Below are positions 3,607 through 45,031 of a stretch of 64,000 bases of DNA, piece by piece (the stretch's first letter is position 1; each line of letters begins with the position of its first letter). Position numbers and translations under genes: made by a program. Source of the DNA: Marchantia polymorpha subsp. ruderalis (taxonomy: Eukaryota > Streptophyta > Marchantiopsida > Marchantiales > Marchantiaceae); assembly GCA_037833965.1 (NCBI GenBank), contig AP031354.1, forward strand, positions 14,300,001 to 14,364,000. The letters are read 5' to 3'. Below the pieces are notes generated by a model that was given only the letters and a program-made list of their open reading frames with translations, was not told where the DNA came from and ran no database searches.

Positions 3607-4286
3607 CACACAAACTCACCACTCATTACTCAATTGCAAACACTCATGGATACTCAAAAGAATAGTGAAACTCGAATTCATATTAATGAAACAAATCTTC
3701 ACACAATGAACTTTCAAAAATTGTTTCAAAGTCTACTCTCGATCTTTTTACTTATTTTATTTGAGAAATTACAATAGTTTTAGTAATAATTATCTTATAA
3801 TTTACTTTTACAAAGATAAATTATTGTATATTAGATAAGTTTTCAATATGTTGCAACATGCTATTGCACTTCTAAATCTTATAGAAGTTTCCTAATACTT
3901 AGGTTGAGGTGCAGACATGTCATTTGATAATTTAAATCTTATATAAAATTCATTTGCCACTAAGTCAACTTTAGATTTAGTCAAACCAATGAAATTTTCA
4001 TTACTTAGTCAAATCAATCAAACTAATCATAACTCAAAAGTATTTTACTTTAGAATCTAGATTTTTATAAAAAACAAAACATCCATATATTCTCCATATA
4101 TCCATAAACAAAATCCATATATTCTAAAATTCACGTTATTATTTTTCCAAGTATAAATTATTTAACTAAACTTAATTATAACTAGCTAGATTTAGTTATA
4201 CCTAACCTAACCTAACCTAACCTAACCTTGGTCAACATCTTGGCTAGTTACAATAATATTTCACACATAAAATAACCAATCCTACA
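3607..4286 (-). repeat. TGTAAGACC-family repeat (probable solo LTR), copy 1, minus orientation
   Basis: Read on the minus strand, this begins TGTAGGATTGG and continues with stretches shared with the plus-strand copies near 33962 and 38734, such as the ATGTGTGAAAT box, the GACTAAATCTAGCTAGTT-type box and the GTGTTTGCAATTGA/GAGTTTGTGTG region. It lies inside the copia relic. The homologous part fades below about 3607, where GC-richer DNA takes over, so its 3' end is uncertain. It contains a short internal CCTAA pentamer array at about 4200-4226. The family looks like solo LTRs, but a non-autonomous element is possible. Confidence 0.6.
4200..4226. repeat. CCTAA pentanucleotide array
   Basis: Four to five tandem CCTAA units inside the minus-strand repeat copy. 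The pentamer differs from the plant telomere heptamer CCCTAAA, so it is a simple repeat, not a telomere relic. Confidence 0.8.
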
Positions 4287-22300: not shown

Positions 22301-22564
22301 ATATTGACCCCCAATATCATGACCTTCTAGGTGTATAAGAGGTAGAAATTCAGATCTGATGAGAGTAGCAATACCGCCATAGCCTCTTCCTCCTCGTTGA
22401 CTTCTATGATTCCAAGTGGATCCCACCAAAGTAAACCATGGTATCTCTTCAATAGTGTTGCTCTCATGTTCTCACGTCTCCACAATGTTGATGATGTCAG
22501 CCATCTTCCAAATCGGATCAGCACTCACACATTTTGTTGAAGAAAGAACTCTAATATTCCACAT
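19366..22564 (-). pseudogene. LINE ORF2: endonuclease and reverse transcriptase, disrupted
   Basis: This is the nicking endonuclease and target-primed reverse transcriptase of the LINE. It starts at ATG 22564 (MWNIRVLSSTKCV, the usual WNIRG-like opening of plant L1 ORF2). The endonuclease covers about 22500-21180, with FLVGDFNARIG and the SDHAPLLF motif containing the catalytic Asp-His. The RT covers about 21150-20200, with FINFKKAFDTV (first Asp), IQGCPLSPTLF and ALLYADDIILLA (YADD). The C-terminal zinc-knuckle-like segment CRLCDG..EEEHVFLTC lies near 19550. There is an in-frame TGA within about the first 35 codons and a frameshift near 21165-21176, just before the RT. The RT frame alone is open for 599 codons. 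No RNase H domain is seen. Confidence 0.9.
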
Positions 22565-22588
22565 TAACACCCTCAAGCTCTTGGATTG

Positions 22589-23323
22589 CTAGGTTGATGA
22601 TTGTCTCCTCCTCTTAGTGATAACAGCTTGACTATCACGTAGAAAAGCTACAAAACCTGCATCTTGAGCTTCTTTGACTTTTGCAAGCTCTTTTCTCCTT
22701 GCCTCTACTTGTAGAGGTGTGATATCGAGATCTAACCAAATCCTTTGTCCCTTGAGAACAGCTTTATTAGCTAAAGCCGTATCACATTGAGTTTGGTCAT
22801 TGAACTTAACTATGATAGCTCGAGATTGGGTTCCTATTGTTCCAATGCGAAAAGCTTGAGCCACATCCGGATTAGCAACATGAAGTGTTTCAGCCAAAAA
22901 CTTGGTAACAACACTTTTCACCTCTTCCTTCTCAGATTCAAGTAGACCAGAAATCCTCACATTCTTTCTACGAGCAAATTGATTAGCCTTTTCAATCTCT
23001 TGCTCTTGACAGAAAGAGATATGAGCAAACTTGGTGGCTTCGGCATAAGACTTCATTTTCACCTCTAGACTTTCAACCACTTCATGGAAACCAGGTGTAG
23101 TAACAGTAGAAGCTTGGGAACCAACCTTCTCTTGGATGTCTTCAACTGATCCAGATATTTCTAGCATGATCTTTTCAAAACTTTTGTGGGAAATCTTCAA
23201 CTCCCGGATTTCATTCTTTGCAGCAATCAAAGCAGCATTTTGTACCTTGAATTCTTGACGGAGCACTTGCAGTTCTTCTAAAACCGTTTGGAGAAGTTTT
23301 GCAAGGTTGTCTTGAGATGCCAT
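22589..23323 (-). CDS. LINE ORF1 protein (coiled coil plus RRM-like nucleic-acid chaperone)
   Basis: An intact 244-residue ORF from ATG 23323 (MASQDNLAKLLQTVLEEL) to a stop at 22589. Residues about 5-75 have heptad-like Leu/Ile spacing typical of the trimerising coiled coil of L1 ORF1p. Residues about 110-215 resemble the L1 ORF1p RRM and C-terminal domain: ARRKNVRISGLLESE, then AFRIGTIGTQSRAIIVKF, then the Lys-rich end. In L1 elements this protein binds the element RNA. There is no CCHC knuckle here, unlike many angiosperm L1 ORF1 proteins. It is the best-preserved ORF of the element and sits directly after the 166-bp monomer array. Confidence 0.85.
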   Translation of the reverse strand: MASQDNLAKLLQTVLEELQVLRQEFKVQNAALIAAKNEIRELKISHKSFEKIMLEISGSVEDIQEKVGSQASTVTTPGFHEVVESLEVKMKSYAEATKFAHISFCQEQEIEKANQFARRKNVRISGLLESEKEEVKSVVTKFLAETLHVANPDVAQAFRIGTIGTQSRAIIVKFNDQTQCDTALANKAVLKGQRIWLDLDITPLQVEARRKELAKVKEAQDAGFVAFLRDSQAVITKRRRQSST

Positions 23324-23334
23324 CTTGTATGGTT

Positions 23335-24390
23335 CACTTAAAAATCATATTCTCAAGTACAAACTACAACCTCAAGTTCTCAGAACTCCTTCAAACTCTT
23401 TCCTCATCCGTTGAGTCTGAAACTTTCCAGGTGATTCAGTCCAGCCGAGTGGAATGTGCCTGCAAATTTTCAGGTCGAGTTGCTACTCCAGTACAAAGAA
23501 TTTGCAAACGCAAAATCTGTTCACCACAACCTCAAATCAGAGCTCCGACCCTAAGAACTGCTGCGAATCATCCCCGTTGGGTCTGAAACTTTCCACGTGG
23601 TTCCGTCCAGCCAAGTGGAATGTGCCTGAAAAATTTAAGGTCGAGTTGCTACTCCAGTACAAAGAATTTGCAAACGCAAAATCTGTTCACCACAACCTCA
23701 AATCAGAGCTCTGACCCTTAGAACTGCTGCGAATCATCCCCGTTGGGTCTGAAACTTTCCACGTGGTTCCGTCCAGCCAAGTGGAATGTGCCTGCAAAAT
23801 TTAAGGTCGAGTTGCTACTCCAGTGCAAAGAATTTGCAAACGCAAAATCTGTTCACCACAACCTCAAATCAGAGCTCCGACCCTTAGAACTGCTCCGAAT
23901 CACCCCCGTTGGGTCTGAAACTTTCCACGTGATTCCGTCCAGCCAAGTGAAATGTGCCTGCAAAATTTCAGTTTGAGTTGCTACTCCAGTGCAAAGAATT
24001 TGCAAACGCAAAATCTGTTCACCACAACCTCAAATCAGAGCTCCGACCCTGAGAACTGTTGCGAATCATCCCCGTTGGGTCTTAAACTTTCCACGTGGTT
24101 CCGTCCAGCCGAGTGGAATGTGCCTGCAAAATTTCAGGTTGATTTGCTACTCCAGTGCAAAGAATTTGCAAACGCAAAATCTGTTCACCACAACCTCAAA
24201 TCAGAGCTCCGACCCTGAGAACTGTTGCGAATCAACCCCGTTGGATCTGAAACTTTCCACGTGGTTCCGTCCAGCCGAGTGGAATATGCCTGCAAAATTT
24301 AAGGTCGAGTTGCTACTCTAGTGCAAAGAATTTGCAAACACAAAATCTGTTCACCACAACCTCAAATCAGAGCTCCGACCCTGAGAACAG
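23335..24390 (-). repeat. 166-bp tandem monomers forming the LINE 5' region
   Basis: The landmark GTCTGAAACTTTCC (or a one-base variant) recurs at 23415, 23581, 23747, 23913, 24079 and 24245, exactly 166 bp apart each time, and partial units extend the array to both ends. Each unit also contains CAAAGAATTTGCAAACGC and CACCACAACCTCAAATCAG. The array abuts the ORF1 start codon on its 3' side (minus strand) and the hAT-like DNA on its 5' side, so it belongs to the LINE. Units are highly alike in the middle, and the one nearest ORF1 is the most diverged. Short ORFs across it are shadows of the repeat. Confidence 0.9.
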
Positions 24391-24405
24391 TAATAAACAA
24401 CCTGC

Positions 24406-25528
24406 ATGAAGTCAAGTACGACCTCAAAGGTGGTATCCCGAGACGCGAATGGTGTCGTTGATAGTGTTCAGTGCCAATTTTGCCGATTCCATGTTCGGGA
24501 GCAGGTTCCTGGTGCCAAACGCAAGCATATCCAGAACATCAAACTCTTTGCACCACCTTATCAAATGTACAACTATCAAGTCCATCACAAACAGGCCCAC
24601 GTGAACAAGTGGGCCGAGTACAAGGTGATCTCGTTCGAGGACAAGAAAGTGTTCTTCAACAAGCGACCGGAATTCAAGTACACGTTGTTTTACTTCTTTG
24701 ACGACGCGAGCTGATATTCACCGTAAGTGCGCCCATTGTCAAAGTTCTGATTGGCGATATGTTCTTCGACTCCGAGGACAAAACGATCTTGACAGAGACA
24801 GCGTTGAAGTTGTTTCGGCGCCATGAGCACGGCAGCTACAACGTCACGATCAAGACGCCGCTTAGGTATTAGCTCGCGATTCAGCACACGTCAGCCGGGT
24901 TGTCATTTAAGCAGACCGCCACCGTCATTCAACAACACCAAAAGCTCACCAAGACAAAAAAATTGACTGGAGCGACTGATGCTTTGGTCAACGGCTACGT
25001 CAGTATTATCGTTGCGGTCGCCATGCATCTCAGTAATCTGATGGAAAATTCGTCCATGTGGACATTCTTGTTTGTGTGTGACTTGAGCACTCACATGGAT
25101 ATTTGATTCATGGATCACCGTCTGGTGGTGGATGGTCTTCTCGTCAACCTACATTGGCTAGCCATTCCCATGTTCGATTGGCACATCGCCATCAACTAGA
25201 TCAATCTGATCACAAAGGTCATGAACATTATCAATTCCGGCTGGCGCGATAAGCTGATTGGACTCTCTTCGAATGGCGAGAACATCATGACAGGCTGTCA
25301 CGGTGGAGTCATCACTTTGCTCAAGCAGCAGGCGACGAATGATGTGCTGAGCGTTTGGTGTCATGCGCACCAGATGGATCTTGTCATGAAGACGGGGTTC
25401 GCCATGATTAACGATGGGCAATTCGTCAATGGAACAAACCGATGAATTATGCATCTCAGCTATTAAGAAAATCTCATCAACGACATTGGCTCGGCGTGTC
25501 CGAAGCTGATCAATTGCGGGCTGCATAT
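24406..25528 (+). pseudogene. hAT-like transposase, N-terminal and central part (broken, split by LTR element)
   Basis: The transposase of a DNA transposon, beginning MKSSTTSKVVSRDANG. Residues about 20-65 resemble a BED-type zinc finger (CQFC, then KRKHIQNIK, then HHKQAH). A central segment at about 25220-25445 reads KLIGLSSNGENIMTGCHGGV followed by VWCHAHQMDLV, which fits the hAT core around the second catalytic Asp and the conserved C..H motif. Between and after these parts there are several in-frame stops (for example soon after codon 102), so it is a pseudogene. The reading stops at 25528, where the Ty3-like element begins, and resumes at 37533. From memory, the closest-looking proteins are hAT-like transposases abundant in oomycete genomes; this needs a search. 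Confidence 0.7.
25525..25528. repeat. Target-site duplication, left copy (ATAT)
   Basis: ATAT directly precedes the first base of the Ty3-like insertion (TGCCATG at 25529), and the same four bases follow its last base (CGACA at 37528). Four matching bases is short; Ty3-type elements usually duplicate five, and the neighbouring base does not match. Confidence 0.45.
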
Positions 25529-25820
25529 TGCCATGTAGTTACGAGTCGGCTCACGCAATTTGGGCAGTTACTATATTTAGACGTGGAGATAGAGTTCGGG
25601 TCACGAGGGATATACAGTCGAGGACGGCTCGAAGAACTCTAGTTCTTTGAGTTGAGCCTGGAAGCGTTGGGAGCGTAGAGCGACTTTTTCCTTTGCGTCG
25701 ACCTGGATTTTTTGAGTGTGGAGTGGGTTGGGCTTGACTCATGTTTGTGACAGTGACGGTTTGTTGCCAATAGGGTAATCGACCGACGGGAATTCCAGTG
25801 AGAAATGTCCCTTTATTTCA
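25529..25820 (+). repeat. 5' LTR, partial (segment Y, 292 bp)
   Basis: Begins TGCCATGTAGTTACGAG and ends CCCTTTATTTCA. It matches 37121-37412 over the same 292 bp with about 19 mismatches by eye, of which about 16 are transitions. Only the Y part of the LTR is present on this side; the 114-bp X part lies at the far end of the element. An internal palindrome-like box CTCGAAGAACT..AGTTCTTTGAG lies at 25628-25651. Confidence 0.85.
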
Positions 25821-25832
25821 CTCGAAGAACTC
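25821..25832 (+). promoter_or_regulatory. Candidate primer-binding site, complementary to the element's own LTR
   Basis: CTCGAAGAACTC starts at the base after the LTR terminus TTTCA. It is not complementary to the initiator-Met tRNA primer usual for plant Ty3 elements. Its complement AGTTCTTCGAG is present inside the LTR (about 37232-37242 in the 3' copy). This is the arrangement expected for Tf1-type self-priming, where the 5' end of the transcript pairs with the site. It is also simply a copy of the left arm of the LTR palindrome, so chance or duplication is possible. Confidence 0.45.
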
Positions 25833-28830
25833 ACGTTTTCTGAAATCGTTGCAGTTTAGGGTTTTTGTTTCGGTGCTTTCCTGGTTGTAGTCTTGGTATT
25901 TTCCGGGTGATTTTCTCAGTTGGGGTTGGAGATTTCTCGTGTTTGTGACGGGACTCTCACGCTCAGTTTGAGCTTTAGGATTTCGAACGAATGTTGTCTA
26001 ACGGAATTGCCTAGGGTTTAGGAGGGCGGACGAGCGATATTCCGAATCTATTCAGATTGGTGGTGTCATCGAATTTTGGATTGCATGCTACTGGAGGCAA
26101 GAGGTTACGAGTGCAAAGTCTTCAGTTTGGAACGAAGATTTTCTCCGAGACACTAGTTCAGGTAGATTTGTCTATCAAGCTTTTCAAGTTGTTTAGAGAT
26201 ATGAAGGAGGTTGAAGCAGACACCGTGGTTAGTGCAACGCAGGAAGTTACAAGATGGGCTTATGGGTGCCTTGTCGTTTGAATGAGATATTGAAGTATAG
26301 AGTTCAGAACTTACCGCACGATTTGGAGCTCATCGTTTTTTTAAGTAACCCCGTGCTTCTTCGTCGGCAAGTAGATCAAATTGGATGTGGCATGTAGCTT
26401 GTGCCGACCGGTAGGCATAATCGTAGGTTCACACTACGAGTCATTCTCCTTCAGATAGGCTAATTGGGAGCTGAGCAAAGCGCAGACTTGTGCTGTATCG
26501 AGCAGAGGTCTCGACGGGTAATTGCAGCATTTACAGCGGATTAGGGTATGGTGACCGGACCAAAGGTTTAGATACTCGTTCATTTGAAGCAGGTGGAGAC
26601 GAGTTGTGATAGGAAATACTGTCGGAGTCAAGGTCTGGTATGTCTTCATTCTGAAAGTCTGCTCCAATATCAAGAGAGGAATTCGAGGGAGAGCTCGCAA
26701 AGGCTAGTTTACTCTGACCAGTTTCTTCCACTTTTCTCATAGACATGTAAACATCGAACGGATTCGCAGGCGGTGTAGGAGATTTCAGAGGTAAAAGAGT
26801 CCTCTGAAACGTGGCTTTATGGGCGTACAGTCATGGTTTGCACAAGAAGCATTTCTATCCACATTTAGTGTACATCATTGTGTACAATGATGTACTCAAT
26901 GAGTTTTCATTGTATTGTACTTTTCATTACAATACAAGGGTAGGCAGTTGATACAATCCTGGAATATAGGCCCTTGACAAACTCCATGCAGTCTATCGGG
27001 AAGGGAATCGATTTCGAGAGAAGTATCATTTTCAGCATCCAACAATCGTTCTGAAGAGTCGGCCTATCACCTTTCAAAACAGTCGTGTGAGTTAAAAAGT
27101 TGTCCGTGCAGCCGTGGTAGAAAAACCTGCTTTCAATCCATTTTGACCAATGATTGGAGGTTTGGGGTGCAGGCTCGTGGGTTCATGATATTATTCTGCA
27201 TCAAACTATCTAGAGAACCTCCTGAACACAAGTCCATACCCTCTTGTGAACTGTATGAATTTGCTTGGTTGCTAGGCGACCGTCTCTTCTGATTTATCAC
27301 ATCCATTTTAGTTTCCCCACCTATTGGAGTTGCCTCTACCTCAGTTGCATTAACTCATCCAGTCAATCATCGAGGTCTTATAAGGAAGGTATTTTTGAAT
27401 GTCTACCTTCAGATGAACAGAAACGTAGAGTAGTCAATACAGTGGCAAATCTTATGTGATTTTCACAAGTACAGGTCTAAAGAAAGTTGTAGTTTGGAAG
27501 CTTTATACACCAGCACCTGTTTCGAGAGCAAGGGCTATAGTTCGGGGTGCAGTGAGAGCACTTGCAGTCCTCACTGAAGGTAGATGACTGATCTGAACCT
27601 CAACTGTGAAGAGTGTCGTTTGTTTGTCATCAGTCATCCTTCCAACAGAATATGATTCATCTCAATATCATGTATCCCTGCAATCAGCCAACACCAACTG
27701 CAAGTTCAAAATCTTAAAGACTTTTTGAGGAGCACGGATTGCTTGCACGTTATGAACGTGAAGGAAGAGAGAGTAGAGAAAATTGTTGGAATAGGGGGAA
27801 AACCATGTATTTCACTCCTAAGTTCGGAATTAGTACCATTGAAGGTTAGTCTAGGTAAGAGACATTGTGTTTCTATTATCAACTTAAATCTTTCTTTTTC
27901 CTGTTATGTTTAGAGAAGTATATTTTTTCTTCTTATTTTCACCCCTATAGTTGAGAATACATTTATCTTTCTTGTGAAACTAAATCTTAACCTGAAGATA
28001 GAGTAGTACTCTGTACTTTCTACCTTGAACAAGTCAAGGTGATTTTTGTGAATTCGTTGGCATACATTCAGAAATGAATTCAGCCCTTTAGTCCAGTGGT
28101 ACATGTGGAAAAATAAAAATAAAAAAATATTCTGAAAAGATTGAGAACTTGCACTCAATCTTACCTATATGAGTTTTTTTGGTTGTGAAGACATGTACTT
28201 CTATAGTTCTTAGTGTGTATGTTTGTTGAGGTAGTGGAAGTATATGTTTTAGCTGTATCTCTTTTCTTATGGTGAACGATTAGAGTAAGTAACGGTTTTT
28301 AGATTCCTTGCCCTAGTGGAAGGAGAGGTGTGATTTGCTGTATGAGACAGCTTGGTGGAGATATCTTCTTTACGACGGGATGAAGGAGATAGCGTTGGGG
28401 GCGTGAAAGAAGCAGACACGGAGCCTGACGAGTCAATGAACTTCTGCGCTACATGTGCACTTGCAAACGGAAGGTGGTAGGGCGATGGAGATCGAATCGG
28501 GATCGCGAAGCAATGCGATGTCCCATGTGTGTTGTCTTGTTTTGTGTTGTGTTTCCTTTAGATTGGAGAGTTGTTGCTAGCTGTTTGCTTGTGTTTGGAT
28601 CCTCTCCAGTCTTGCTTCTTGGTGCGCGCCCGTGTAGGGGTGACGCTGATTTCCGGAGTAATTTTACTCCTGTGTGCTGTCGATAGGGGGCTGGACTTGA
28701 TCACCGGCCGGCCTATCTATGTTTCTCTCACGGTGAGACTGGAGTGATGACCAGTAGACCGTGAGAGTCTTCTTGCGGTGATGACAGGTTAGGTTGCCCA
28801 TACCCCTTAGCTAGTAGGGCTAGAGTAGCT
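25833..28830 (+). other. Three-kilobase leader of the Ty3-like element, with gene-like but unassigned patches
   Basis: No gag-like sequence is seen here. Several patches have composition like plant genic DNA: a GTTTAGGGTTTTTG box near 25856, an open stretch at 26057-26281 (plus), a Ser-rich open stretch at 26531-26746 (minus) and one at 27725-27850 ending near a GT donor-like site. They could be captured host sequence, an older inserted element or chance. Two adjacent hairpins lie at 26870-26937. I do not recognise any protein. Confidence 0.4.
26870..26937. repeat. Twin perfect hairpins in the leader
   Basis: Hairpin 1 has arms GTACATCATTG (26870-26880) and CAATGATGTAC (26885-26895) around TGTA. 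Hairpin 2 has arms TTGTATTGTA (26910-26919) and TACAATACAA (26928-26937) around an 8-nt loop. Both stems are perfect and only 14 bases apart. Confidence 0.8.
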
Positions 28831-30180
28831 CAGTGCGGCACGACGTCAGGGGCGGATTGGGTTATTGGGTGGAGATCTGGCAGTGGTGCCAGTTCAGGTT
28901 TTGTCATCACGGAGCAGTCTAGTGGTCCTGTTGAGGACCGCGGTGGATTTACGCGGAGTGGGTTGAGGTATCGGCTACCTTCACTTATCTCGCCAGTTGT
29001 TGCGGAGGAGGACCAGAGTCTTGCAGACATAGAATCTTCGGTGGTGATATCGTCTAGTGTTCCAACCCCATTGATTTGGGACATGGACGGGATGTACGGG
29101 GCCGTGAAAGGCCCTCGACGGTACTCTGGTGCAGTGAGCACCATCGAGTTGGATGATTTTATTCAGGAGTTCGACACGTGGTGTGACATGCAGTTTCTGC
29201 GTAATCCCACGTTGTTTACACCCTTCTTTGCGTGGAAGGGGTTATTCCAGCATTTGGAGGGACCTCCCATGGACGATTATCATGAGTTTGGGAGAGATTA
29301 TGCTATTGAGATTGATGCATGAAGGCACCATTGGTCTCCGAGCTACTTATCCATTACCCAGGGTGGGGTGGGTACCAGTGGAGGTGCGAGTATCGGCATC
29401 AGTGGAGGTGCGAGTAGTAGCATCAGCGAGGGTACCTGTGGAGCAGTTGGCGCAACTGGTACCAGTACCAGCAGCGATACTGTTAGCATTGCTGGTGGCA
29501 GCACGAGGGGAGATGCTAGTGGCGTAACTTCGTTTAGCCCATTCCTGAGTTCTTCCAGAGATTGAGGAAGAATTATTAGGGGGTGAAGACGGAGAAGTTG
29601 AGGAGCCTCCAGGAGTTTGAGCGGAAGACTGGTGAGAGTCTTCGTGAGGCATACACTCGTATGCGACGGCTAATCTCGGTTACTCACGGTGTGACTGAGG
29701 CACAAGCTGTCTAGTACTGGTATCGGATTTTGGACAGAGAATTGCGGAGGAGAGTGTGTGATGCTACTCTCATGAGCGACTCATCACTCACATTAGCCCA
29801 TGTGTTTACTCTTTCTGAGAAGATTGAGCTTAACATGGTGGAGGAGAGGGTGGTGACGTCTACATTTGCGAGGGACACGACTACTACCTCGCGTATTCCA
29901 CATAGTACAACACAGTCTCGCTCCATGAATGGTGGTACTGGGAGTCGTGGAGGTCATACCCGACATCCTTCAACTCATAGAGAGCCTAGTACGCGGCCAC
30001 CACTGCCTTCATTTTTGGGCCAGCCATAGGGATCGTCATGTTGGACATGCGGAGGTGGTCATATGAGGAAGGATTGTCCCCATGAGAGAGAGGGACAAAC
30101 TCCATAGGCTAGGCCACAGCCAGCACAAGTGACCTGTGATCATTGTGGTCGACCGGGTCACCCTTGAGAGCGTTGTTTTG
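28830..30180 (+). mobile_element. Gag region of the Ty3-like element
   Basis: Capsid-like sequence is seen at about 29090-29310 (RRYSG.. then a FIQEFDTWCDMQF segment) and about 29600-29860 (a REAYTRMRRLIS segment, then LTLAHVFTLSEKIEL), as in Ty3 Gag. Two zinc knuckles follow at 30039-30077 (CWTCGGGHMRKDC) and 30133-30173, both of the slightly short form C-x2-C-x3-H-x4-C. Low-complexity Gly/Ser/Thr-rich DNA lies between the capsid halves. The region is broken in several places. Confidence 0.7.
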
Positions 30181-30977
30181 ACCTTCATCCTGAGTCGAGA
30201 TTTGGAGGTAAAGGTCGTGGCGGTGATGCTCCACGAGGCCGAGGTGGTAGAGGTATCGGTGCCATTGAGCATACCGCAGCGAGTGCTACTTCCGCCACAG
30301 AGAGCGCTATGGCTGCTCGAATTGAGTAGTTGGAGCAGAGGCTTGCTGCTATGGTTGGTCTGGGGGCGAGCACTTCCACACCTTACGAGGGAGAGGATTT
30401 CTCCTACAGTGCGGCATAGGTTGAGGCATCAGTTGCAGTGACCAGAGGTGTTGCCCGCACTTTAGAGCCACGTGGTGCGACTGTGGAGTTGGATCCTTAG
30501 AGGGGTGAGGGTGAACGTCAGTCTAGACTTCCCCACTCTTTTTTGTTGTCGGAGGTGGGCAACAGTTCATCTATGAGACCTGCACCGCCTAGTGACACTA
30601 GAGTGAGAACAGAGGTTCTTACACAATCTGTTGTGGACGCAGACGTGCCATCTAGTGCAGTGATGCGGATGGCCACTTCAGTCTTGCGATCTCCATTGTT
30701 TTCAGCCACGGAGTTGATGGACTCTAGTATTGATTTGGCCCGAGTATTTCGGGTAGCAGCCACGTCGTGTGAGCGTGGGAGAGTCACTGCTACGAGTGCC
30801 GAGATACGTGAGGATACGGTTGAGGGCTCATCCTCAACGTCTACATTTTTCGAGGAGACGACTTGGCAGGCGGCAGAGGCGAGGATGGAGTCCTTACCAG
30901 CTCGCCCAGCCATTGATCGCAAGAGTATTGTTCTTGGTGTATGTACGGTGGATAACTGAAGTGATCTATTTCGGTTA

Positions 30978-31370
30978 GTGAGTTCTACTAGACAGGTTTA
31001 TGTCCCAGCCAGAGTTTTGTTGGATTCCGGTGCACAGCCCTTGATGTTGGGCAAGACTACATGCATTAGTTTGGGTATTCGGAGGTCAGAGTTGGAACCT
31101 TGCCCATTCCAGATCCAGACATCCCTTGGTGGCACCACCGATAGGTCTTACTTTATGATCAGGGAGAGCATAGTAGTGCAATTGAGGCATGATCACCCTC
31201 ATGATAGCTTGCAGTTTGGAGTTTGTGTGGTGGTTACATCAGCACAGTCATATGATGTGCTTGTTGGTGGAGCTGGGTTATATCCAATGGGTTTTCGGAT
31301 GGACTATTGGACGGAGACTGCTGCCTATCGTCTTGGTTGGCATTCTGGCGATGGACGTCTTAGCGAGTTG
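30978..31370 (+). mobile_element. Aspartic protease region of the Ty3-like element
   Basis: Contains VLLDSGAQPLMLG near 31015, the catalytic Asp-Ser-Gly motif followed by the hydrophobic flap-side pattern of retropepsins. The later YDVLVGGAGLYPMGF segment resembles the usual YDVILGMDWL block of Ty3 proteases, with the expected Leu-Gly replaced by Val-Gly. It leads, through a linker of about 120 residues, directly into the methyltransferase domain. Confidence 0.75.
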
Positions 31371-31734
31371 CCAGTGAGATTTATTTCTCGAGATCGACCT
31401 CTTGGATCTTCATCTACGGTCTTAGCATCCGTTGCGGGTTTCAACGGAGTGCTTACTTGGCCTCATGACTTGTTAGAGGGGAACATGTCCGCCGACGATA
31501 CCTCAGTCTACGAGGATATAGAGGAGTTTATGAGTTTCACAGCGGCGGTGACTTCACCCTTAGATGTTCCACGGTGGAGTTCTTGTCAGACACTTCAGTT
31601 GGAGGCTGATAGGTTGGTGAAGAAAGCTTGGAGTGAAGCCTCTTTACCGGCAGAGCCAGAGAGAGCTTCAGCTGATCCGCTAGTTGGTGGTTCTAGCGCA
31701 TTGTCTCCATTGATTGCTACACCTATTGCATGGG

Positions 31735-32735
31735 AGTTTTCCTCAGAGAGCGTTTGTTTGCTGGATCTTTTTGGTGGGATCAGCATAGGTTTGGCAGCGG
31801 TGTTGCAGTCAGGTGTTCTCGTACGGAGATACTTGTATGTGGAGAAGGATGAGACTGCACGTCGAGTCTCTTCACGACATGTTGCATAGTTGATGCGGCG
31901 TTTTTCTTTGTTATTGCCGCGATCAGCTGTCCAGGGATTCCACGAGGCGTTGCCTTCAGACATTTCGTTGCTGGGGGCGCCAGAACTTGACCGCGTTGGC
32001 CATATTGATATGGTGATTGCGGGCTGGCCATGTCAGGGACACACACGCGCTGGACATGGGACAGGGTTGCATGATCCCAGATCTCGGATGTTTTGGGAGA
32101 TGATGCGAGTGTTACGTCATCTCCAAGTGCAGCAGACACGTTCTCCAGCATACATTCTGGAGAACGTACCATTGTTGGATGACACTCGGGCGCAGTTGAT
32201 GGCGAGTGTCCATCAAGTCCGAGCATGGATTGGATCAGCAGTACTGTTTGATGCTGCGAGGGTTGGATCACGTGCTCATCGTGCACGTTTATGGTGGACC
32301 AACCTTTTGCCACGTGAGATATTGCGTCATGCCTATGATTCTGTGTAGCGTGATCATACACTCACCGTTGACAGTGTCTTGGATGTTTTCCGACACTCTC
32401 AGGTGGTGAGAGTTGCTGATATATCGCCTATGGCGTTGATGAACCGCGTAGGTCAAACTCGGATGGCTTTACCTACGTTGGTCAGTTATCCGGCATCACA
32501 TGCATATCGTGAGGGTAGATCTGGACTACTGTGGGATAGTACAGTACATCAGTTGGTGGAGCCTAACGTTGATGAGAGAGAGCGTGCGATGGGATTTATG
32601 ACTGGTGTGATCGCAGCTGCTTCAGTTTCAGAGGCTTCACGTCGTCAAGTTTTGGGTCAAGCTATGGACTTGAACTGCTTGACGTGGATTGTGAGCTTGG
32701 GTTTGACGGAGCAACGTCGTTTGCGCGTTGATTTA
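31735..32735 (+). mobile_element. C5 cytosine-methyltransferase domain inside the Ty3-like element
   Basis: The conserved C5-MTase motifs occur in normal, non-permuted order. Motif I, LLDLFGGISIGLAAVLQSG, lies at about 31758-31814 (S-adenosylmethionine binding), followed by a motif II-like acidic YVEKDE. Motif IV, AGWPCQG, lies at about 32020-32039 with the catalytic Cys. Motif VI, ILENVP, lies at about 32154-32171. Motif VIII-like RARLWWTN lies at about 32280. The motif IX/X-like RERAMGF and LGQAMDLN segments lie at about 32580-32670. The PCQ and DRS patterns look like the DNMT3/bacterial side of the family, and the order is unlike plant DRM enzymes, whose motifs are permuted. Known family role: methylating cytosine at C5. 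In the element it could have methylated reverse-transcribed copies; that is inference. This copy is broken. Confidence 0.85.
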
Positions 32736-32979
32736 GTGGTTAGTACACCACTTGTTAGCTCATTGCCTACCGGGACGGTAGTGGCAATGGCTGGGGAAGA
32801 CAAGCGAGATATTCGTCATCCTTGGAGTTTATGGGACGTGACGAAAGGACTTGCCGGAGTTGCAGCCCATGCAGTTGGAGAGGATTCCTCATGTGGAGGT
32901 GGCTACGAAGGAGGGTACGGAGAACCCTTCTTTGCAGTGTCTAGCGTAGCAACCATTGACAGTGTCGGCTCCCTCTAGT

Positions 32980-33965
32980 GTGTCTATGGAGGAGGAATGG
33001 GAACCATTGATTGGTTCCCATATCACAGGAGAAGAGAGGCGACGATTGACACAATTCCTACAAGACTATAGGAGTTGTTTTGCCTTCAGTATGAAGAAGT
33101 TGAGTGCGTTGATTGGACCCGGTATACGGATAGAATTGGCTAGTGATATGCCAATCTTTCGTCGTTCTTATTGATACAGTGAGATGGAGAGAGATTTGAT
33201 TTGGAGTAGGACGTTAGACCTACTGGAGGCTGGATTAGTGGAGTTATCGCATGATGAGTATGCGTCAGCCACTGTCATGCCGGTGAAGAAGGATGTACAT
33301 GGCAACTACACGGATAGGCGCATGTGTGGAGACTACCGTCATATCAATCGGCAGACGAAGTCCGATAAGTATGCCATGCCTACACTTGAGGAGATCTTCG
33401 ATGTGGTGGGACATGCGAGGATTTTTAGTACTTTGGATCTTCGGGCAGGATAACATCAGTTGTCAATTCGGGAGGAGGACAAAACCAAGACAGCGTTTTG
33501 GGGCGTCAACTCCCACGGCAAGGATTGTTTGTATCAGTGGCGATTCCTACCCTTTGGGTTGAAGAATGCACCTGCCGAGTTTCAGAGGGTTATGGACAGA
33601 ATCCTGGCGGGGCTGGATTTTGTCAGATGTTACATTGATGATATCTTGGTGTTTAGTGACACTGTGGAGCAACATCAGATACATTTGCAGATTGTGTTTG
33701 AGCGATTGAGGGCTCATGGTTTGAAGTTACATCCTGGGAAGTGTAAGTTCTTCCAGGATAAGGTTGAGTACTTGGGTCATGTGATATACCCAGGTGGTTT
33801 AGGAGTTCATCAAGCAAATGTGGAGGCTATTGCACGCATACCTCGTCCCACGGATGTGAGTAGAGTTTGTGCATTCCTGGATTTGGCGAACTACTACCGG
33901 AGGTATGTGAAGGGGTTCAGTGTTATAGCCAAGCCTTTGAATCAGTTGCTGAAGTCAGATCTGTA
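32980..33965 (+). mobile_element. Reverse transcriptase region of the Ty3-like element
   Basis: Clear Ty3 RT blocks are visible: a VMPVKKDVHGNYTDRRMCGDYR segment (seen at 33275-33345), FSTLDLRAG, LPFGLKNAPAEFQRVMD (about 33546-33600) and YIDDILVFSD (about 33631-33660). The last holds the catalytic Asp pair. The connection to RNase H is interrupted by the solo-LTR-like repeat that starts at 33962. Confidence 0.9.
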
Positions 33966-34712
33966 AGACCAGATATTGCATGTGTGAAATAAAACTAGAT
34001 TTAGCCAAGGAGTTAATCATGGTTAAGATAGTTATGACTAAATCTAGCTAGTTTAGCTATAATGTCTATACTTGGCGGAATAACAAGAGAAGTTCTAGAA
34101 GATTTGAGTGAGCACTTCTATTTTGTCTTGTACAAAAGTCTAGATTCCAAGAGAAAAGACTTTTGAACTTCATGTTTAGTTTTGATTGGTTTGACTAAAG
34201 TAAGGAGTATTCCATTGGTGAGATTAAGTCTAATGTTGACTTAGTGGAAAGTGGAAGTTCTAGAAGTGGGAAAGGCACAAATGGCATGTCGCCACCTCAA
34301 TCTAGAGATTAGTAAACATCTAGAAGGTTTAGGGGGCCAATGGCATGTTGCCACATATTGATAACTAGTCAACCTTACTATGGTTTATCTTCGTAAAAGT
34401 AAGTTAGATAGGAATTACCATTTGTTACTATGGTAAATTCTCAAGTAGTATATATAGAGAGGTAGGAAAGAGCCTCTCAGGCAAGTTTGGAGAGTTCATA
34501 TGTAGAGACTTGTTTCGTATATGAAAGAGTGACGAATTTTCAGTACCTTGGAGTGTCGATGAGTGTATGAGTTGGAGTGATACCTTGAGAGATTGTGTGA
34601 GAAGGTGTTTAGGTTATGAGTATGATGTGGAATCCTAGTCTTCTAGAATCATGATGAGTTACCGAAAAGCCATCTGAGGTAAACCTGAGTGAGAGTCAAC
34701 CCGGAGGTTGCA
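33962..34712 (+). repeat. TGTAAGACC-family repeat (probable solo LTR), copy 2, inserted in the Ty3-like element
   Basis: About 750 bp beginning TGTAAGACCAG and ending GGAGGTTGCA. It is flanked by AGATC at 33957-33961 and at 34712-34716, with the shared A making the exact end ambiguous by one base. The insertion lies between the RT and RNase H regions, so it is younger than the Ty3-like element. No internal ORF is present. The TG..CA ends and short duplication suggest a solo LTR; the minus-strand copy near the copia relic hints at a Ty1/copia origin, but this is not proven. Confidence 0.75.
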
Positions 34713-34719
34713 GATCAGG

Positions 34720-35200
34720 AGTGGCAATGGGGAGATGAGCAGGAGAGAGCTTTTGTTGAGCTCAAGGCCAGGTTGGTGGCCGCTCCCATCTTGAGGAGAC
34801 CTATCAGAGGTCGTCCATACCAGTTGCACACTGATTGAAGTATGTCGGGACTTGGAGCGGTGTTGACACAGCGTGATGATGAGGGCAAGGAGTTTGTGGT
34901 TGCGTACGCTAGTCGTTTGAACAATGCAGCGGAGTCGCGGTATAGTTCGTACGAGGGAGAGTGCTTGGTAGCGGTGTTAGCTATGGCACACTTCAGATGT
35001 TACTTGTTTGGTACGCAGTTCAGCCTTGTTACTGATCATCAACGGCTCAAGTGGTTGATGGTGTCCGACAAGCTTACAGGGAAGCTTGCACGGTGGGCTG
35101 TCATCTTACAGGAGTACGACTTTCAGGTAGTGCATAGACCTGGAGTTGCGAACCTAGATGCCGATGGTTTGAGTCGGAACCCATGCACTAGCCAAGAGGA
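34720..35200 (+). mobile_element. RNase H region of the Ty3-like element
   Basis: Shows the Ty3-type RNase H pattern: AFVELKARLVAAPIL, then GLGAVLTQRDDEG, YASRLNNAAESRYSSYEGECLV (with the conserved Glu) and FSLVTDHQRLKWLM (with the catalytic Asp), then WAVILQEYDF and VHRPGVANLDADGLSR. Confidence 0.85.
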
Positions 35201-35519
35201 TGACACTGGAGCTAGATGGCATGGTGAGGTTGACGAGGAGATGGTGCCTGGTTGGCATGCATCTGCCTTCATGTGTTGGTTACGTGGGAACTCCAGCAGA
35301 GAGGATCATCTGACATCTTACTCTAGTTAGAGAGTAGATGGTCGATCTTCAGATCCTGAGGTTGAGGATGGTGGTGTGGATCAGCGTGATGTTCACGATG
35401 ATGCATTGGTGTTGGAGTTCCTACGGACCAGCATGGTGCCACGCACTATGGGTGCCAAGGAGCGAGATCGTGTTCTCCAACGGGCGAAGAGATACCGATT
35501 GGAGTGATCACATGTTCTC

Positions 35520-36650
35520 CGAGTGTGGGAGTACGGTAGGGTACGAGTAGTACCACATCCAGCCCAGAGAGCACGCATTGTGAGGCATGCTCATGAGGAG
35601 TTGGGACATTTTGGAGTGAAGCGTACATACAGCTTACTCCTTGGTCAGTATTGGTGGCGTGGTATGCATACTCAGGTACAGCAGTTGGTATCACGTTGCA
35701 TGGTTTGTGATCGAGTGAGGGCATCATTCAACGCCCCGACATCAGTGTTACATCCATTACCCATCATGGGGTTGGTTTACCGTTGGAGTTTGGACTTTAC
35801 TGGACCACTACCTTTGATTGTACGACATCATCGGTATGTGTTGATGATGGTGGAACATTTCTCCAAGTGGATTGAGTTGGTGGCATTACCTGACAAGGCA
35901 AGTGAGGGAGTAGCGTATGCTTTCCTTGACAGAGTGCTTAGTCACTATGGTGCACCAGCTGAGGTGTTGACCGATCAGGGGACGGAGTTTCAGGGTGAGT
36001 TTCAGGTCTTGTGCGACAAGGCACTGATTGATCATCGGACCACGTCGCGAGATCATCCAGAGGTTGATGGTTTAGTTGAATGTGTTGTACAGACGGTGAA
36101 GAGGGCGTTGCGCAAGTATGGCATGCAGAAAGGTCATCTTGGGGACTGGGATATCCAGTTACCGTGGTTGGCCCTGGGATATCGGTTTAGTCGGTAGGCA
36201 TCCTTGGCTTCCTTCTCACCATATTTTCTATTGTACGGCCGAGATCCAGACTTGCCAACATCGATTCGTCGTGAGTCTAGCGAGGTGGTGAACCTTGATG
36301 ACGCGAATATGTGGGTGAGAGTATATTCTCAACGTGCAGAGCTCTTTCGAAGAGTTATGCATGCAGCGTTTGAGAATCTTGCGATTGCTCAACATAGAGA
36401 TACGTTGCGGTATGCAACCATTCGGGGAGGATGTTATCGACCATCGATTCGTAGATTCCATGTGAGAGCCTACGTCTATCTACAGCAGAATGCACCGACG
36501 ACATTGGATGTGACGGCGGGACGCACAATCTTGCGGGTGCGGGAGGTGTTACCTTCTGGAGTTCTCCTGTTGGAGGGTCGTGACGGCGTTGTTTGGAAGG
36601 ATCATGTGCGCAATTGTGCGCCATGCCACCTCCCAAACATAGATGGTACT
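35520..36650 (+). mobile_element. Integrase region of the Ty3-like element
   Basis: The N-terminal HHCC finger is visible as HAHEELGHFGVKRTY followed by SRCMVCDR (about 35597-35715). The DDE core shows WSLDFTGPLPL (first Asp, about 35790), VLTDQGTEFQGEF (second Asp, about 35970) and the DHPEVDGLVE segment (Glu, about 36060). The C-terminal part reaches about 36650. No chromodomain is seen where chromoviruses have it. Confidence 0.85.
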
Positions 36651-36689
36651 ATGGACCCAAGCTTAGCAATAGTACGTGCTGGCTTGAGG

Positions 36690-36825
36690 TGCATGCTATG
36701 TTGGTAAGCTGGTGAGGTGGCCCGTACGTTGATGTGTGATAGGTGTTCTAGGGGATGGCACATGTTGTGCCTGACTCCGCCTATCGATGTTATTCCGGCT
36801 GGACGATGGGTTTGTCCTCGATGTA
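36690..36825 (+). mobile_element. PHD finger at the 3' end of the element's pol
   Basis: The C4-H-C3 spacing of a PHD zinc finger is readable: CMLC, then CDRC eight to twelve residues on, GWHMLC, and a closing WVCPRC after about 20 residues. This is the position where chromoviruses carry a chromodomain. In known families PHD fingers read histone H3 tails, so a role in choosing chromatin for integration is plausible inference. The polypurine tract and 3' LTR follow within about 200 bp. Confidence 0.75.
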
Positions 36826-37004
36826 CTTCAGAGGGTTAGATGACTTGATCTTCACATGTTATGAATTGCAGATAGGCGACTAACGATGGGGCGACATAGC
36901 ACCCGGCCTACTGGTTCGCGCACCCACGAAGGTGTATAGCATGTAGTTGCAGATAGGGCTACCTGGGAGTCAAAGTGACCTGACCGCCAGCTAGGGGGGC
37001 GAGT

Positions 37005-37412
37005 TGTGACATTTGAGTGTGTACTCTCTCGCGCCTTATATGTGTGTATGTGTGCGTATGTGTATGTGAGTAGCATGTCAACGATGTAGAGTGTATGGCG
37101 ATATGTATTCGCACGACATCTGTCATGTAGTTACGAGTCGGCTCACGCAGTTTGAGCACTTACTATATTTAGACGTGGATATAGAGTTCGGGTCACGAGG
37201 GATATACAGTCGGGGACGGCTCGAAGAACTCTAGTTCTTCGAGTCGAGCCTGGAAGCGTTGGGAGCGTAGAGCGACTTTCCCCTTTGCGTCGACTTGGAT
37301 TCTCCGAGTGTGGAGTGGGTTGGGCTTGACTCATGTTTGTGACGATGACGGTTTGTTGCCAGTAGGGTAATCGACCTACGGGAATTCCAGTGAAGAATGT
37401 CCCTTTATTTCA
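37005..37412 (+). repeat. 3' LTR (X plus Y, 408 bp)
   Basis: Starts TGTGACATTTGAG at 37005, directly after the purine-rich AGGGGGGCGAG, and ends CCCTTTATTTCA at 37412, giving TG..CA ends. It consists of X (37005-37118), the dinucleotide TC and Y (37121-37412). X is GT-rich (TATGTGTGTATGTG). Y contains the perfect palindrome CTCGAAGAACT-CT-AGTTCTTCGAG at 37219-37242. Confidence 0.8.
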
Positions 37413-37414
37413 GT

Positions 37415-37528
37415 TGTGACATTTGAGTGTGTACTCTCTCACGCCTTATATGTGTGTATGTGTGTGTATGTGTATGTGAGTAGCATGTCAGCGATGTAGA
37501 ATGTATGGCGATATGTATTCGCACGACA
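37415..37528 (+). repeat. Second X segment (114 bp) beyond the 3' LTR
   Basis: A near-identical copy of 37005-37118 with four mismatches, all transitions. It is joined to the 3' LTR end by the two bases GT and abuts the hAT-like DNA after ATAT. Together with the X-less 5' LTR it makes the overall order Y-internal-X-Y-X. Confidence 0.9.
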
Positions 37529-37532
37529 ATAT

Positions 37533-38470
37533 GGATCTCACGCTCGATTGGATGCTCGACAAGCGCTTGCGTCTATTGACACACATTGAGGAAAAAAAGC
37601 ACGTCGATGCGTCTATTGAGTTGTGGTATATCGAAGCAGCGGTTGTTGCGGCAGTGACGGCCGTGGTGAATGCGACATTTACGAAGATCCAGACAAAGTA
37701 CATGATCATCTTGCAGCATCATAGTGAGATTGAGCAGATGGTCTGTCGGCTGTGCATCCTAGTCTCCGCCGAGCTGTTGCCCAATGACTTCAACCTGGTC
37801 GGTGCAGATAACGTCTGCTCTTTGCTTTGGTGGATACTGGCGGAAGCCTTGATCAACTTCATCGAGGATCAGATATCATTCGTCCACGACCTACTTAGTA
37901 ATCTTAGTCTGAGCGACGAACCGAAAGTCCTACGGAAAATTGGCGAATTCATACTCCATATCGTTGAGGGTATGTACGATGTCTAGGAAGAATATGATAA
38001 CATGAACCAGGCTGCCGCTTCACTTCCTCTTGCGGTCATGCCGACTGAGCTGGTCAAGATGCCACCACGTATATTCGTCGTCGGAAATTTGATCCACGCA
38101 CATACCATATAGTGAAATTCTAGTCTACGGAGCAGAGCGAGGAGATTGAGAGCGATCACCGTTGATTGTGTCGAGAGTACATTGTCAACAAACGCGTCAA
38201 GACCAAGATTGACCAACATGATCACAAGACGATGTTTAACGTTGGCTAGGATGATGTCTAGGGCTACGTATCGGACGGTTCGTTCCGTTGTTTGCGACAA
38301 ATCTGCAATGGACTTGCCATCATGTTTGCCAACACAACGTCGGTGGAGTCGGAATTTTCCATATTGAAGTGGGAGAAGGACGATCGGCACACAAATTTGA
38401 CTTGTTTGACATTGGAGGGGGTATTCCAGGCGAAACAGTTTGACATAAGGACGCGTCTGTAGAAATAAAA
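37533..38470 (+). pseudogene. hAT-like transposase, C-terminal part including dimerisation region (broken)
   Basis: Continuation of the transposase after the LTR element, starting MDLTLDWMLDKRLRLLTHIEEKK. The segment to 37986 is open and helical in character. Further on, in another frame, about 38280-38460 reads LRQICNGLAIMFANTTSVESEFSILKWEKD and then LTLEGVFQAKQFD, which fits the hAT C-terminal dimerisation motif (the usual FPNTASVESDFS.. block). There is a stop at 37984-37986, several more near 38110 and 38165-38265, and at least one frame change, so the gene is dead. Downstream, a perfect hairpin at 38507-38550 and the TTGGCRAACG-like repeats to about 38630 may be the transposon 3' end. 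Confidence 0.7.
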
Positions 38471-38733: not shown

Positions 38734-39474
38734 GTAAGACCAGTTGTTATACATGTGAAATAGTATTAGAACTATTCAATGAGTTGATTATGGTTAGCTT
38801 AGTCATGACTAAGTCTAGCTGGTTATGACTAAGTTTTGTAAAAAAAATAAAAATACTCACTCAAATGTTCTAGAACTGCTTTAATTATTCTGTCAAATGT
38901 AGATATTATAGCTAAACTTAGTTCAAAAGTCTAGATTCTAAGAGAAAAAAGTTTTGACTACATGTTTAGTTTTGATTCGTTGAAGACTTAGTTTAAAGTT
39001 GACCTAGTGTAAATTGGAGGTTCTAGAACTTTGAAGGTTTCAAATGGCATGTCGCCACCTCAATCTAACAATTAGAAAGCTTCTAGAAAAGTTAGGTAAA
39101 TCAATGACATGTTGTCACTTATTGGAAAATAGACAAATCTATCATGATTTATCCCGTAAAAGTAAGTCATGATGTAATTATCATTTGTTACTTTGTTAAT
39201 TTTTGTGAATAGTATAAGTAAGTTTGGACTAGAGAAGAATCTTTTAAGCAAGTTTGGAGAGTTCACTATGCAATGATTTGTTTTCAATATAAGTTTGAGT
39301 TACATTATCTTTTTTACTATCAATAAGTGTTTGCAATTGAATGATGAGTGAAGAGTTTGTGTGACATGGTGTTTGGATTATGTACAATTAAAGAATCTTG
39401 ACCTTCTATAACCATAATGGGCTTCCACAAAGCCATCTTAAGTCAACCTTAGTAAAAGTAAGTTTGGAGGTCAT
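38734..39474 (+). repeat. TGTAAGACC-family repeat (probable solo LTR), copy 3
   Basis: Begins TGTAAGACCAG and ends near TTTGGAGGTCA. It is collinear with 33962-34712 over most of its length, sharing for example ATGGCATGTCGCCACCTCAATCTA and CAAGTTTGGAGAGTTCA, but is more decayed and AT-rich, so probably older. No convincing target-site duplication is seen. It follows directly after the presumed end of the hAT-like transposon. Confidence 0.7.
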
Positions 39475-44023: not shown

Positions 44024-45031
44024 AAATAGATCAAGCCCGTGGGACCCAAAGAGTCAGAAGGCTGAAAAACACAATATAAACAATCCAACTCCAATCTATG
44101 AGAGAATCAAAAGAGACCCTTACCTAGTGCCAAGAGCACTCAAACGGCAACTAATAACATCCCTAATGTAACAACCTAAATCATAAGGCTCAAGCTGAAG
44201 CAAGGAATAGAAATTCTCAACAACTTTATGAGCCACTCTAATCTCTATATATCTAGTACAAGTAACAAACACATGCTCTTCATCCACAACTTTTTTGCAA
44301 TCACATAGCCTACAAATACGTTCACTCCTATCAATGTTCAACCAACAACCTTCTTCAACCCCAAGACTATAAGATCATGTTCTATGCCTAGCAATAATAT
44401 GACGTAAAGATGTAGAGATCTCCGCAAGTAACTATACTTGCTTACAATGAACAAGCATAGGATTCACATGAAGTTGATAAAACTACATTTTAGTGTCTTG
44501 TCTGCTCCAAATAATGCTGAGAAATTACTCCTTGATACGTTCGTGAAGGGCCATAGGTTGCAAATCCCAATCAAGTTCCGTCACATTTCACCTCAAAGAC
44601 CAAGTCACCACATCTGCAAACCATCTCTTGTGACGTGTGGCACGCAAAGCTTCAAGAGAAAGTCGAGAAGCATCAAGAGATCTCACTTTTTTTACATAAG
44701 TGATAGTCAAGAAGAGAGCTTCAAACTCAAGATGTAGACAACATGTTTCCGCAAGAAGAATAGCATATGAAGTTTGGGTCTTCACACCCAATTTTTCTTG
44801 TAAGAAGATCTTTTGCACTCTCTCCAAACGTTGCCAACCTGTCTTCTTACAACTAGATTCCCACACTTGTGTTCCATAAGATAACGGGAAACACTAAGCT
44901 CATAAATAAGAATTTCCTTAGACTCCAAGACACTAGATGAGCTCCTCTACAGCTATTTAGCAAGGAATATAGAGCTTTGAAACCAGCTTCAATACTCTTT
45001 TGCACACAACGTGCCCAACTATAATCGTAGA
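44024..45031 (-). mobile_element. 5'-truncated LINE of the same family, minus strand
   Basis: This matches the 3' part of the LINE at 19254-24390: the AATAGATCAAGCCC 3' end at 44024, the zinc-knuckle segment ERICRLCDCKK..EEHVFVTC (about 44260-44320) and the ORF2 C-terminal region (44588-44866, KTGWQRLERVQKIFLQE). Similarity stops at about 45031, inside the region just after the RT, a typical 5' truncation. It lacks the TTACCA tail and has several stops and frame changes, so it is an old dead copy. Confidence 0.85.

Follow-up and report, generated by a model that had tools for sequence, protein, structure and literature searches.

A recently mobile Ty3/gypsy-type element carrying a DNMT3-like cytosine methyltransferase in the genome of Marchantia polymorpha

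KnitGypsy-Dnmt3 of Klebsormidium nitens is, according to the accessible portions of de Mendoza 2018 (PMC5890265), a gypsy element that carries a methyltransferase (MTase), whose repeats were called DIRS-like and which was regarded as an independent acquisition. The same portions describe SymbioDIRS-Dnmt3 and SymbioLINE-Dnmt of dinoflagellates, which are also retrotransposons with a cytosine MTase but are built on DIRS or long interspersed nuclear element (LINE) backbones, and a 2025 study (PMC12344493, available in part) places some DNMT3s in 'LTR Copia and DIRS' elements (LTR, long terminal repeat) of streptophytes and dinoflagellates. Here, we analyzed a window of 64,000 nucleotides from Marchantia polymorpha subsp. 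ruderalis (assembly GCA_037833965.1, contig AP031354.1; C5:14300001-14364000). Judged by its domains, the part from 25529 to 37528 is a worn copy of a Ty3/gypsy-type element carrying a DNMT3-like C5-cytosine MTase (C5-MTase) between protease (PR) and reverse transcriptase (RT). As read from the copies compared below, this is an element of the KnitGypsy-Dnmt3 kind, real and recently mobile in the genome.

Compared by description only, and with the accessible portions of PMC5890265 as the source, the Marchantia family and KnitGypsy-Dnmt3 share Ty3/gypsy domains, an unrearranged DNMT3-related MTase, DIRS-type repeats and purifying selection on the MTase. An initial reading made from the letters alone (the sequence-only reading) had proposed a likeness to the 2018 elements, which is borne out; the PHD finger, the split repeats and the variable leader had escaped that reading. 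The present family differs in its liverwort host, an MTase placed 5' of an amber codon in the gag-protease open reading frame (ORF), a PHD finger, 4-bp target duplications, a palindromic joint and a variable leader. New relative to KnitGypsy-Dnmt3 are the occurrence in land plants, the large and recently mobile family, the PHD finger, an amber stop in a leaky context, and structural features that point to integration from end-joined DNA. None of the named matches of our three protein searches came from K. nitens. DNMT-bearing elements of Marchantia or other bryophytes were not found in the open literature searched (bioRxiv and most subscription journals lie outside it), and the accessible parts of PMC10952607, PMC11244446, PMC6453930 and PMC12477816 contain no mention of such an element in bryophytes.

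Domains of the element in the window

C5-MTase motifs I (LLDLFGGIS), IV (PCQ), VI (ENV), VIII (AHRAR..WTNL) and IX/X (DERERAMGF...LGQAMDLN) occur in this order and in one frame at 31719-32690, between protease and RT and close to where the sequence-only reading had put the enzyme. The frame at 30981-32975, two amber codons included, comprises a retropepsin-like stretch followed by the main C5-MTase motifs. The profile check proposed in that reading gave a clear match, since the stop-free piece 31890-32345 hit Pfam DNA_methylase (7.9e-11, 42.4 bits; cut-off 22). With its stops written as X, the MTase domain matched human DNMT3A in the PDB (1.4e-7), and the predicted structure of the MTase from an intact copy was nearest to DNMT3A/3B. 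The unrearranged I-to-X motif order and the predicted fold are those of the DNMT3 family. A rearranged enzyme of the DRM type was rejected, because motif I precedes IV and VI here while two host DRMs show the rearranged order; DRM chains were not among the 50 structure matches listed (VIA-align), an absence that excludes nothing.

The rest of the element is of the Ty3 type, as had been proposed: RVT_1, RNase H and rve follow one another in the Ty3/gypsy order PR-RT-RNase H-integrase, and the best PDB match of the gypsy-type RT was Ty3 (3.1e-45). Behind the integrase, Pfam PHD matched 36708-36836 (3.9e-10, 40 bits; cut-off 24), and a PDB profile that included P0102, a relative of the type II order described below, matched the PHD fingers of ATXR5, WSTF and BAZ2B, the matching part coming from P0102 and not from the window. 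Chromoviruses are Ty3/gypsy elements with a chromodomain behind the integrase, and the present element resembles them in having a chromatin-reading module in that position, here the PHD finger.

The window copy is damaged in several ways: the MTase frame contains the two ambers, the reading frame changes between MTase and RT, both RT and RNase H hold stops, and 33967-34715 adds about 0.75 kb, the gap from RT to integrase being 1557 bp versus 807 bp in another copy (c6a). Its insertion interrupts another reading frame: when the flanks 25300-25528 and 37533-37983 are joined, a 171-aa open run extends over the empty site. A Pfam search of both flanks gave no match. The features of this copy, with A and B denoting the parts of its terminal repeats, are as follows.

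25525-25528, no strand: 5' target-site duplication ATAT, equal to 37529-37532
25529-25820, plus: 5' terminal repeat B, starting with TG and without an A part; 93.2% identity to 37121-37412
25820-25831, plus: putative self-primer binding site ACTCGAAGAACT, complementary to a stretch within B
25832-28108, plus: leader specific to the window copy; no alignment to the leaders of the other compared copies, pieces matching elsewhere in the genome
28109-28835, plus: leader partly common to other copies; 28109-28380 about 93-96% to several copies, about 400 bp before gag 95-97%
28960-30335, plus: gag with two CCHC-like knuckles and a broken frame; BLASTP matches to gag regions of Marchantia proteins, Pfam zf-CCHC only 0.18
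30981-31320, plus: retropepsin-like protease (LLDSGA); Asp_protease_2 0.061, under the cut-off, kept in relatives
31719-32690, plus: DNMT3-like C5-cytosine methyltransferase with two ambers; Pfam, PDB DNMT3A match and structure model of an intact copy
32947-32955, plus: amber stop followed by CAACCA (UAG-CARYYA type) between ORF1 and ORF2; the same site closes the MTase frame in 10/10 copies
33139-33966, plus: reverse transcriptase; RVT_1 6.8e-33
33967-34715, no strand: extra sequence within RT/RNase H, like a dispersed repeat; about 70% similar to 38921-39459 and 3607-4079
34716-35327, plus: RNase H; RT_RNaseH 6.3e-33
35523-36194, plus: integrase, zinc-binding part and rve core; Integrase_H2C2 9.1e-17, rve 8.3e-14
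36690-36836, plus: PHD finger 3' of the integrase; Pfam PHD
36993-37001, plus: polypurine tract AGGGGGGCG, directly 5' of A1
37002-37118, plus: terminal repeat A, first copy (A1); 96.6% identity to 37412-37528
37115-37124, no strand: A-B joint GACATCTGTC, the palindrome GACAGCTGTC in other copies; from joint comparison across copies
37121-37412, plus: terminal repeat B, 3' copy; identity to 5' B
37412-37528, plus: terminal repeat A, second copy (A2), ending with CA; identity to A1
37529-37532, no strand: 3' target-site duplication ATAT, equal to 25525-25528

The family in the genome and its relatives

A PF00145 profile search of the genome (241,466,482 bp in 9 contigs) yielded 290 candidates, of which 123 were scored; open frames of 1351-1365 aa hold 24 of the scored matches, and host genes account for at least three (C6:12459429, C2:342518, C3:19066770). 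Element copies were verified in the window and at ten fetched places (c6a, c8a, c8b, c8c, c9a, c3a, c6b, c5, c9b and c2), the latter chosen via their MTase domain. The family order gag-PR-MTase-UAG-RT-RNase H-integrase-PHD was found in all ten, and with it the protease-MTase-RT order whose copies the sequence-only reading had wished to see counted. The two B repeats of a copy are identical in c8a, c8b, c8c and c3a (100%) and nearly so in c6b (99.6%), against 93.2% in the window, which marks the window copy as old. Judged from these comparisons, the family is large and recently mobile in the M. polymorpha subsp. ruderalis genome, and the window copy is degenerate.

The MTase frame terminates at UAG in 10/10 fetched copies, followed by CAACCA in nine and CAACTA in one. 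In the main subfamily, the RT frame starts directly after this UAG and in phase (8/8 copies), and the integrase frame continues into the PHD finger in 7/8, being broken in c6a. UAG-CARYYA is the tobamovirus read-through motif, and at the sequence level the element has this type of putatively leaky stop between in-phase frames. The MTase sits, by this frame structure, in the Gag-protease ORF upstream of the amber, without RT or integrase in the same ORF; the layout first read for the element was right in placing the MTase between protease and RT and needs amending in that the enzyme does not belong to the RT/integrase ORF. As its frame precedes the in-phase amber, the MTase would be made alongside Gag and protease.

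For the MTase, the ratio of nonsynonymous to synonymous substitution rates (dN/dS) was 0.12-0.15 when copies of different subfamilies were compared (five pairs) and 0.16-0.26 for copies of one subfamily (four pairs); between subfamilies, the values were 0.06-0.07 for RT and 0.08-0.10 for integrase (c5 has one stop in each, which was skipped). The MTase is thus shown, by its sequence, to be under purifying selection between subfamilies.

Three protein searches returned 70, 49 and 58 rows, overlapping in part. The nearest proteins were those of M. polymorpha, in agreement with the land-plant host that had been suggested, and the named relatives came from M. polymorpha, Calypogeia fissa, Sphagnum troendelagicum, S. 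jensenii, S. fallax and the green alga Haematococcus lacustris, besides metagenomes. Two orders were seen among them: PR-MTase-RT-RNase H-integrase (type I) and RT-RNase H-MTase-integrase-PHD (type II), the latter with all five parts in 19 proteins and occurring in Haematococcus. The catalytic motifs PCQ, ENV and AHRAR are retained across relatives. A PHD finger also ends the Marchantia protein P0020, and none was found in the type I proteins P0094 and P0096. In the type II proteins P0100-P0110, P0112 and P0133, the MTase follows RNase H and precedes the integrase; in some of them, the PHD finger is followed by long additional C-terminal parts. Among viral contigs, one locus had a 33% MTase match; the phage records searched gave no MTase match.

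A tree of 49 MTase rows was built with 43 element MTases (40 hand-picked from 147 MTase-bearing relatives so as to cover their range, the window and two copies), its root serving for drawing only and its rooting outgroups standing on long branches. All 43 form one clade (99/99), from which a host DNMT3, two host DRMs and human DNMT3A are set apart (97/92). Type II is a clade inside the element MTases (100/97), and the c5 MTase and a protein of M. polymorpha are 0.013 changes per column apart. The RT tree (35 rows, after dropping 12 rows with an RT match below 200 residues and 18 of 20 near-identical gypsy outgroups) again showed type II as a clade (100/99), and its deeper order was weak. With type II nested in the single clade of element MTases, the MTase tree favours an enzyme that was captured once and relocated afterwards; the possible alternative is that the same donor gave rise to two captures. 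Of the related capture that the sequence-only reading had suggested, the kinship to known elements stands; the 43-member clade looks like an old lineage rather than a local capture.

P0168, a protein with a DNMT-like MTase and, by eye, RT and tyrosine recombinase parts as in the dinoflagellate DIRS-Dnmt3, does not join the clade of element MTases and has a long branch. The host MTase at C6:12457929-12461231 has the unrearranged DNMT3 motif order and an intron. The accessible portions of Schmid 2018 (PMC5784723) list five DNA methyltransferases for M. polymorpha, and these are MET, CMT and DRM enzymes only.

Terminal repeats, replication signals and integration

Two equal LTRs, as expected at the ends of a Ty3/gypsy element, are lacking: the 5' end is B and the 3' end A-B-A or A. 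The window copy opens with a single 292-bp B and closes with A-B-A, a B-internal-A-B-A structure shared by c8a, c8b, c8c and c6b; c6a, c9a and, with weaker matches, c5 of the other subfamily are B-internal-A, c3a is B-internal-A-B-A-B-A with shortened B parts, and c9b (other subfamily) ends in A-B-A. Copy c2 belongs to a head-to-tail array (C2:20743000-20759100) in which one A-B separates neighbouring units; inverted pieces of the element lie close by. The limits TG...CA and a perfect 4-bp duplication were found in 8/8 copies (window, c6a, c8a, c9a, c3a, c8b, c8c and c6b; the count leaves out c5, c9b and c2), while cross pairs matched in 0/56. Split direct repeats are a likeness to DIRS/Ngaro elements; unlike these, which use a tyrosine recombinase without target duplication, the present element has a DDE-type rve integrase and the short target-site duplications of Ty3/gypsy.

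The inner A-B joint forms the palindrome GACAGCTGTC. With no more than a single mismatch allowed, a 24-nt pattern across it occurs at 142 genome places and its reversed control at none; among the 100 places listed, 97 are exact. Among these 100 joints, 57 lie downstream of a same-strand MTase match, 49 of them at 3970-4869 bp, and one lies upstream. Fifteen of the 24 long-frame copies have a joint downstream; the nine without are c6a, c9a and seven copies whose frame length (1362-1365 aa) is that of the diverged subfamily. The B/A2 joint reads TTTC|AGTTGTG in 18/20 3' ends, c8b among them with one base change; of the exceptions, c3a is missing the end of B, and c8c is missing the start of A and has acquired filler.

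Directly 3' of B, 12 nt are complementary to a stretch inside B in 7/7 young copies (7 nt in the window copy). Eight of the 11 copies searched (the ten fetched ones and the window) have the tract AGGGGGGCG directly 5' of A1, as do, exactly so, 13/14 further 3' ends, the exact match at the A1 start being missing in c6a and in c5 and c9b of the other subfamily. Primer site and purine tract together predict a cDNA that begins with AGTTGTG, finishes with TTTC and carries an A-B repeat at either end; TTTC|AGTTGTG is the exact fusion of the ends so defined, which suggests joined cDNA ends. Tf1 is a self-priming element with ordinary LTRs and no MTase. By prediction, the present element would resemble it in that a sequence just behind the 5' repeat could pair with a possible RNA 5' end.

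The leaders between B and gag diverge over long stretches among copies. In the c6a leader (C6:30094939-30097559), 1.29 kb aligns to C6:26133212-26135971 as five blocks in the same order (96-100%), and a GT-AG intron fits all four gaps on the minus strand, so that this fragment is a spliced piece of host mRNA antisense to the element; its protein, judged by eye, looks like a DIS3-like exonuclease. Two more blocks of this leader match other genome places. In the gaps examined of the window leader, no GT-AG pair marked it as spliced host mRNA. Given the spliced antisense fragment and leaders that differ between copies, the family may be a transcript-capturing element.

We consider it probable, with moderate confidence, that the window holds a degenerate copy of a mobile Ty3/gypsy family that uses read-through, cDNA methylation, self-priming, integration from joined ends and PHD targeting. 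ORF1 would be translated as Gag-PR-MTase and ORF2 through stop-codon read-through; the MTase, produced at Gag-like levels, would be packaged in the particle with genome RNA and RT and would methylate new cDNA, protecting it or determining which chromatin state the resulting insertion takes on. The RNA, with a predicted start at AGTTCTTCGAG in B, would use its 5' end to prime its own reverse transcription into cDNA with A-B repeats at both ends. Once the cDNA ends become joined, the DDE integrase would cut the palindrome GACA-GC-TGTC inside the repeat, giving CA-3' ends with a 2-nt overhang, and cutting of both strands after CA would produce normal processed ends. The product B-internal-A-B-A would be inserted with the 4-bp duplication, and the PHD finger would read histone tails at the target, much like chromodomains in chromoviruses. 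A circle route of integration was once proposed for retroviruses and dropped later. Only tentatively, and at less than an even chance, do we propose the central step: that the integrase acts at the repeat palindrome on end-joined DNA with one, two or three repeats, and that the Gag-linked DNMT3-like enzyme methylates cDNA, protecting or licensing intermediates.

Several observations weigh against this explanation. KnitGypsy-Dnmt3 gave no detectable activity in yeast, a result which its authors deem inconclusive (PMC5890265, accessible portions). The MTase dN/dS exceeds those of RT and integrase between subfamilies and reaches 0.16-0.26 within them. CpG depletion as a trace of self-methylation was rejected, since no clear signal appeared in the MTase of 11 copies (observed/expected 0.81-0.90) or in the window element (0.73 versus 0.83 in the remaining window). 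The sequence-only reading had counted copies lacking the MTase as a refutation; all ten domain-picked copies carry it, but 42/100 listed joints have no same-strand MTase within 14 kb, by a list of 123 scored matches out of 290. A 12-nt complement was reached in 2/1000 shuffles of one B. Random cutting of two-repeat circles should also yield B-A-B-internal-A, against the observed 57 downstream joints versus one upstream, and the exact B/A2 joints in 18/20 ends could be inherited instead.

Because circle cutting leaves this strong polarity unexplained, a linear route remains viable, in which the same element makes linear cDNA with B...A ends directly in reverse transcription, the split repeats acting as an internal guide as in DIRS elements and no circle being formed. 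We regard it as possible, though short of probable: the polarity, the exact B/A2 joints and the term DIRS-like for the K. nitens repeats (PMC5890265, accessible portions) fit it, whereas the coexistence of B-internal-A (c6a, c9a, c5), B-internal-A-B-A, B-internal-A-B-A-B-A and a head-to-tail array does not. Nor does it sit well with A-B repeats predicted at both cDNA ends, or with c9a and c3a, whose leaders are 98.5-99.8% identical in common sequence yet whose 3' structures differ.

It is unlikely, if still to be reckoned with, that the MTase has a role other than cDNA self-methylation, such as RNA methylation, marking or quieting host DNA near insertions for tolerance, or nucleic-acid binding only. 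The location with Gag would also suit RNA binding, and the closest tested relative showed no activity in yeast (PMC5890265, in part); retention of PCQ, ENV and AHRAR across relatives and a structure model nearest to the DNA enzymes DNMT3A/3B speak for the methylation of DNA. An origin of the additional 3' B-A by unequal recombination or slippage between repeats after insertion would account for a repeat number that varies among copies, and is improbable in view of inserted ends that are B and A in 8/8 copies with duplications read and of an identical exact joint in 18/20 3' ends at different places. Finally, the broken state of the window copy would suit a host DNMT3 gene that had landed by chance in a single dead element, but this is next to inconceivable, with the MTase at the same place in 10/10 fetched, domain-picked copies and in relatives from other plants and with element MTases in a clade apart from host genes; chance similarity or a host-gene fragment was likewise rejected by the Pfam and PDB matches, the relatives and the shared order.

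Elsewhere in the window, a LINE-like element with long endonuclease- and RT-like ORFs by eye lies at 19366-23323 (minus strand), and a second stretch, 82% similar to it, lies at 44025-45032. A tandem array of a 166-bp unit (23408-24537; copies about 94-96% identical) adjoins the start of the LINE-like element. An 841-aa open frame at 51047-53572 (minus strand) resembles, by eye, the ectodomain of a leucine-rich-repeat receptor kinase.

Significance for Marchantia and for the family

Hosts restrain transposons chiefly by DNA methylation. A large and recently mobile family in which purifying selection maintains a DNMT3-like enzyme, in a genetically tractable liverwort genus, makes the self-methylation idea of 2018 directly testable, and it offers a test of why a genomic parasite carries the mark that its host uses for silencing. 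The published Marchantia count of five DNA methyltransferases (PMC5784723, accessible portions) now stands beside the element-borne MTases described here. The combination of split ends and target duplications casts doubt on the rule by which DDE integrases act on linear cDNA ends only, and software seeking two equal LTRs could miss such elements. The algal capture regarded as independent may be part of an ancient family of the green lineage that has a PHD finger and two orders of domains.
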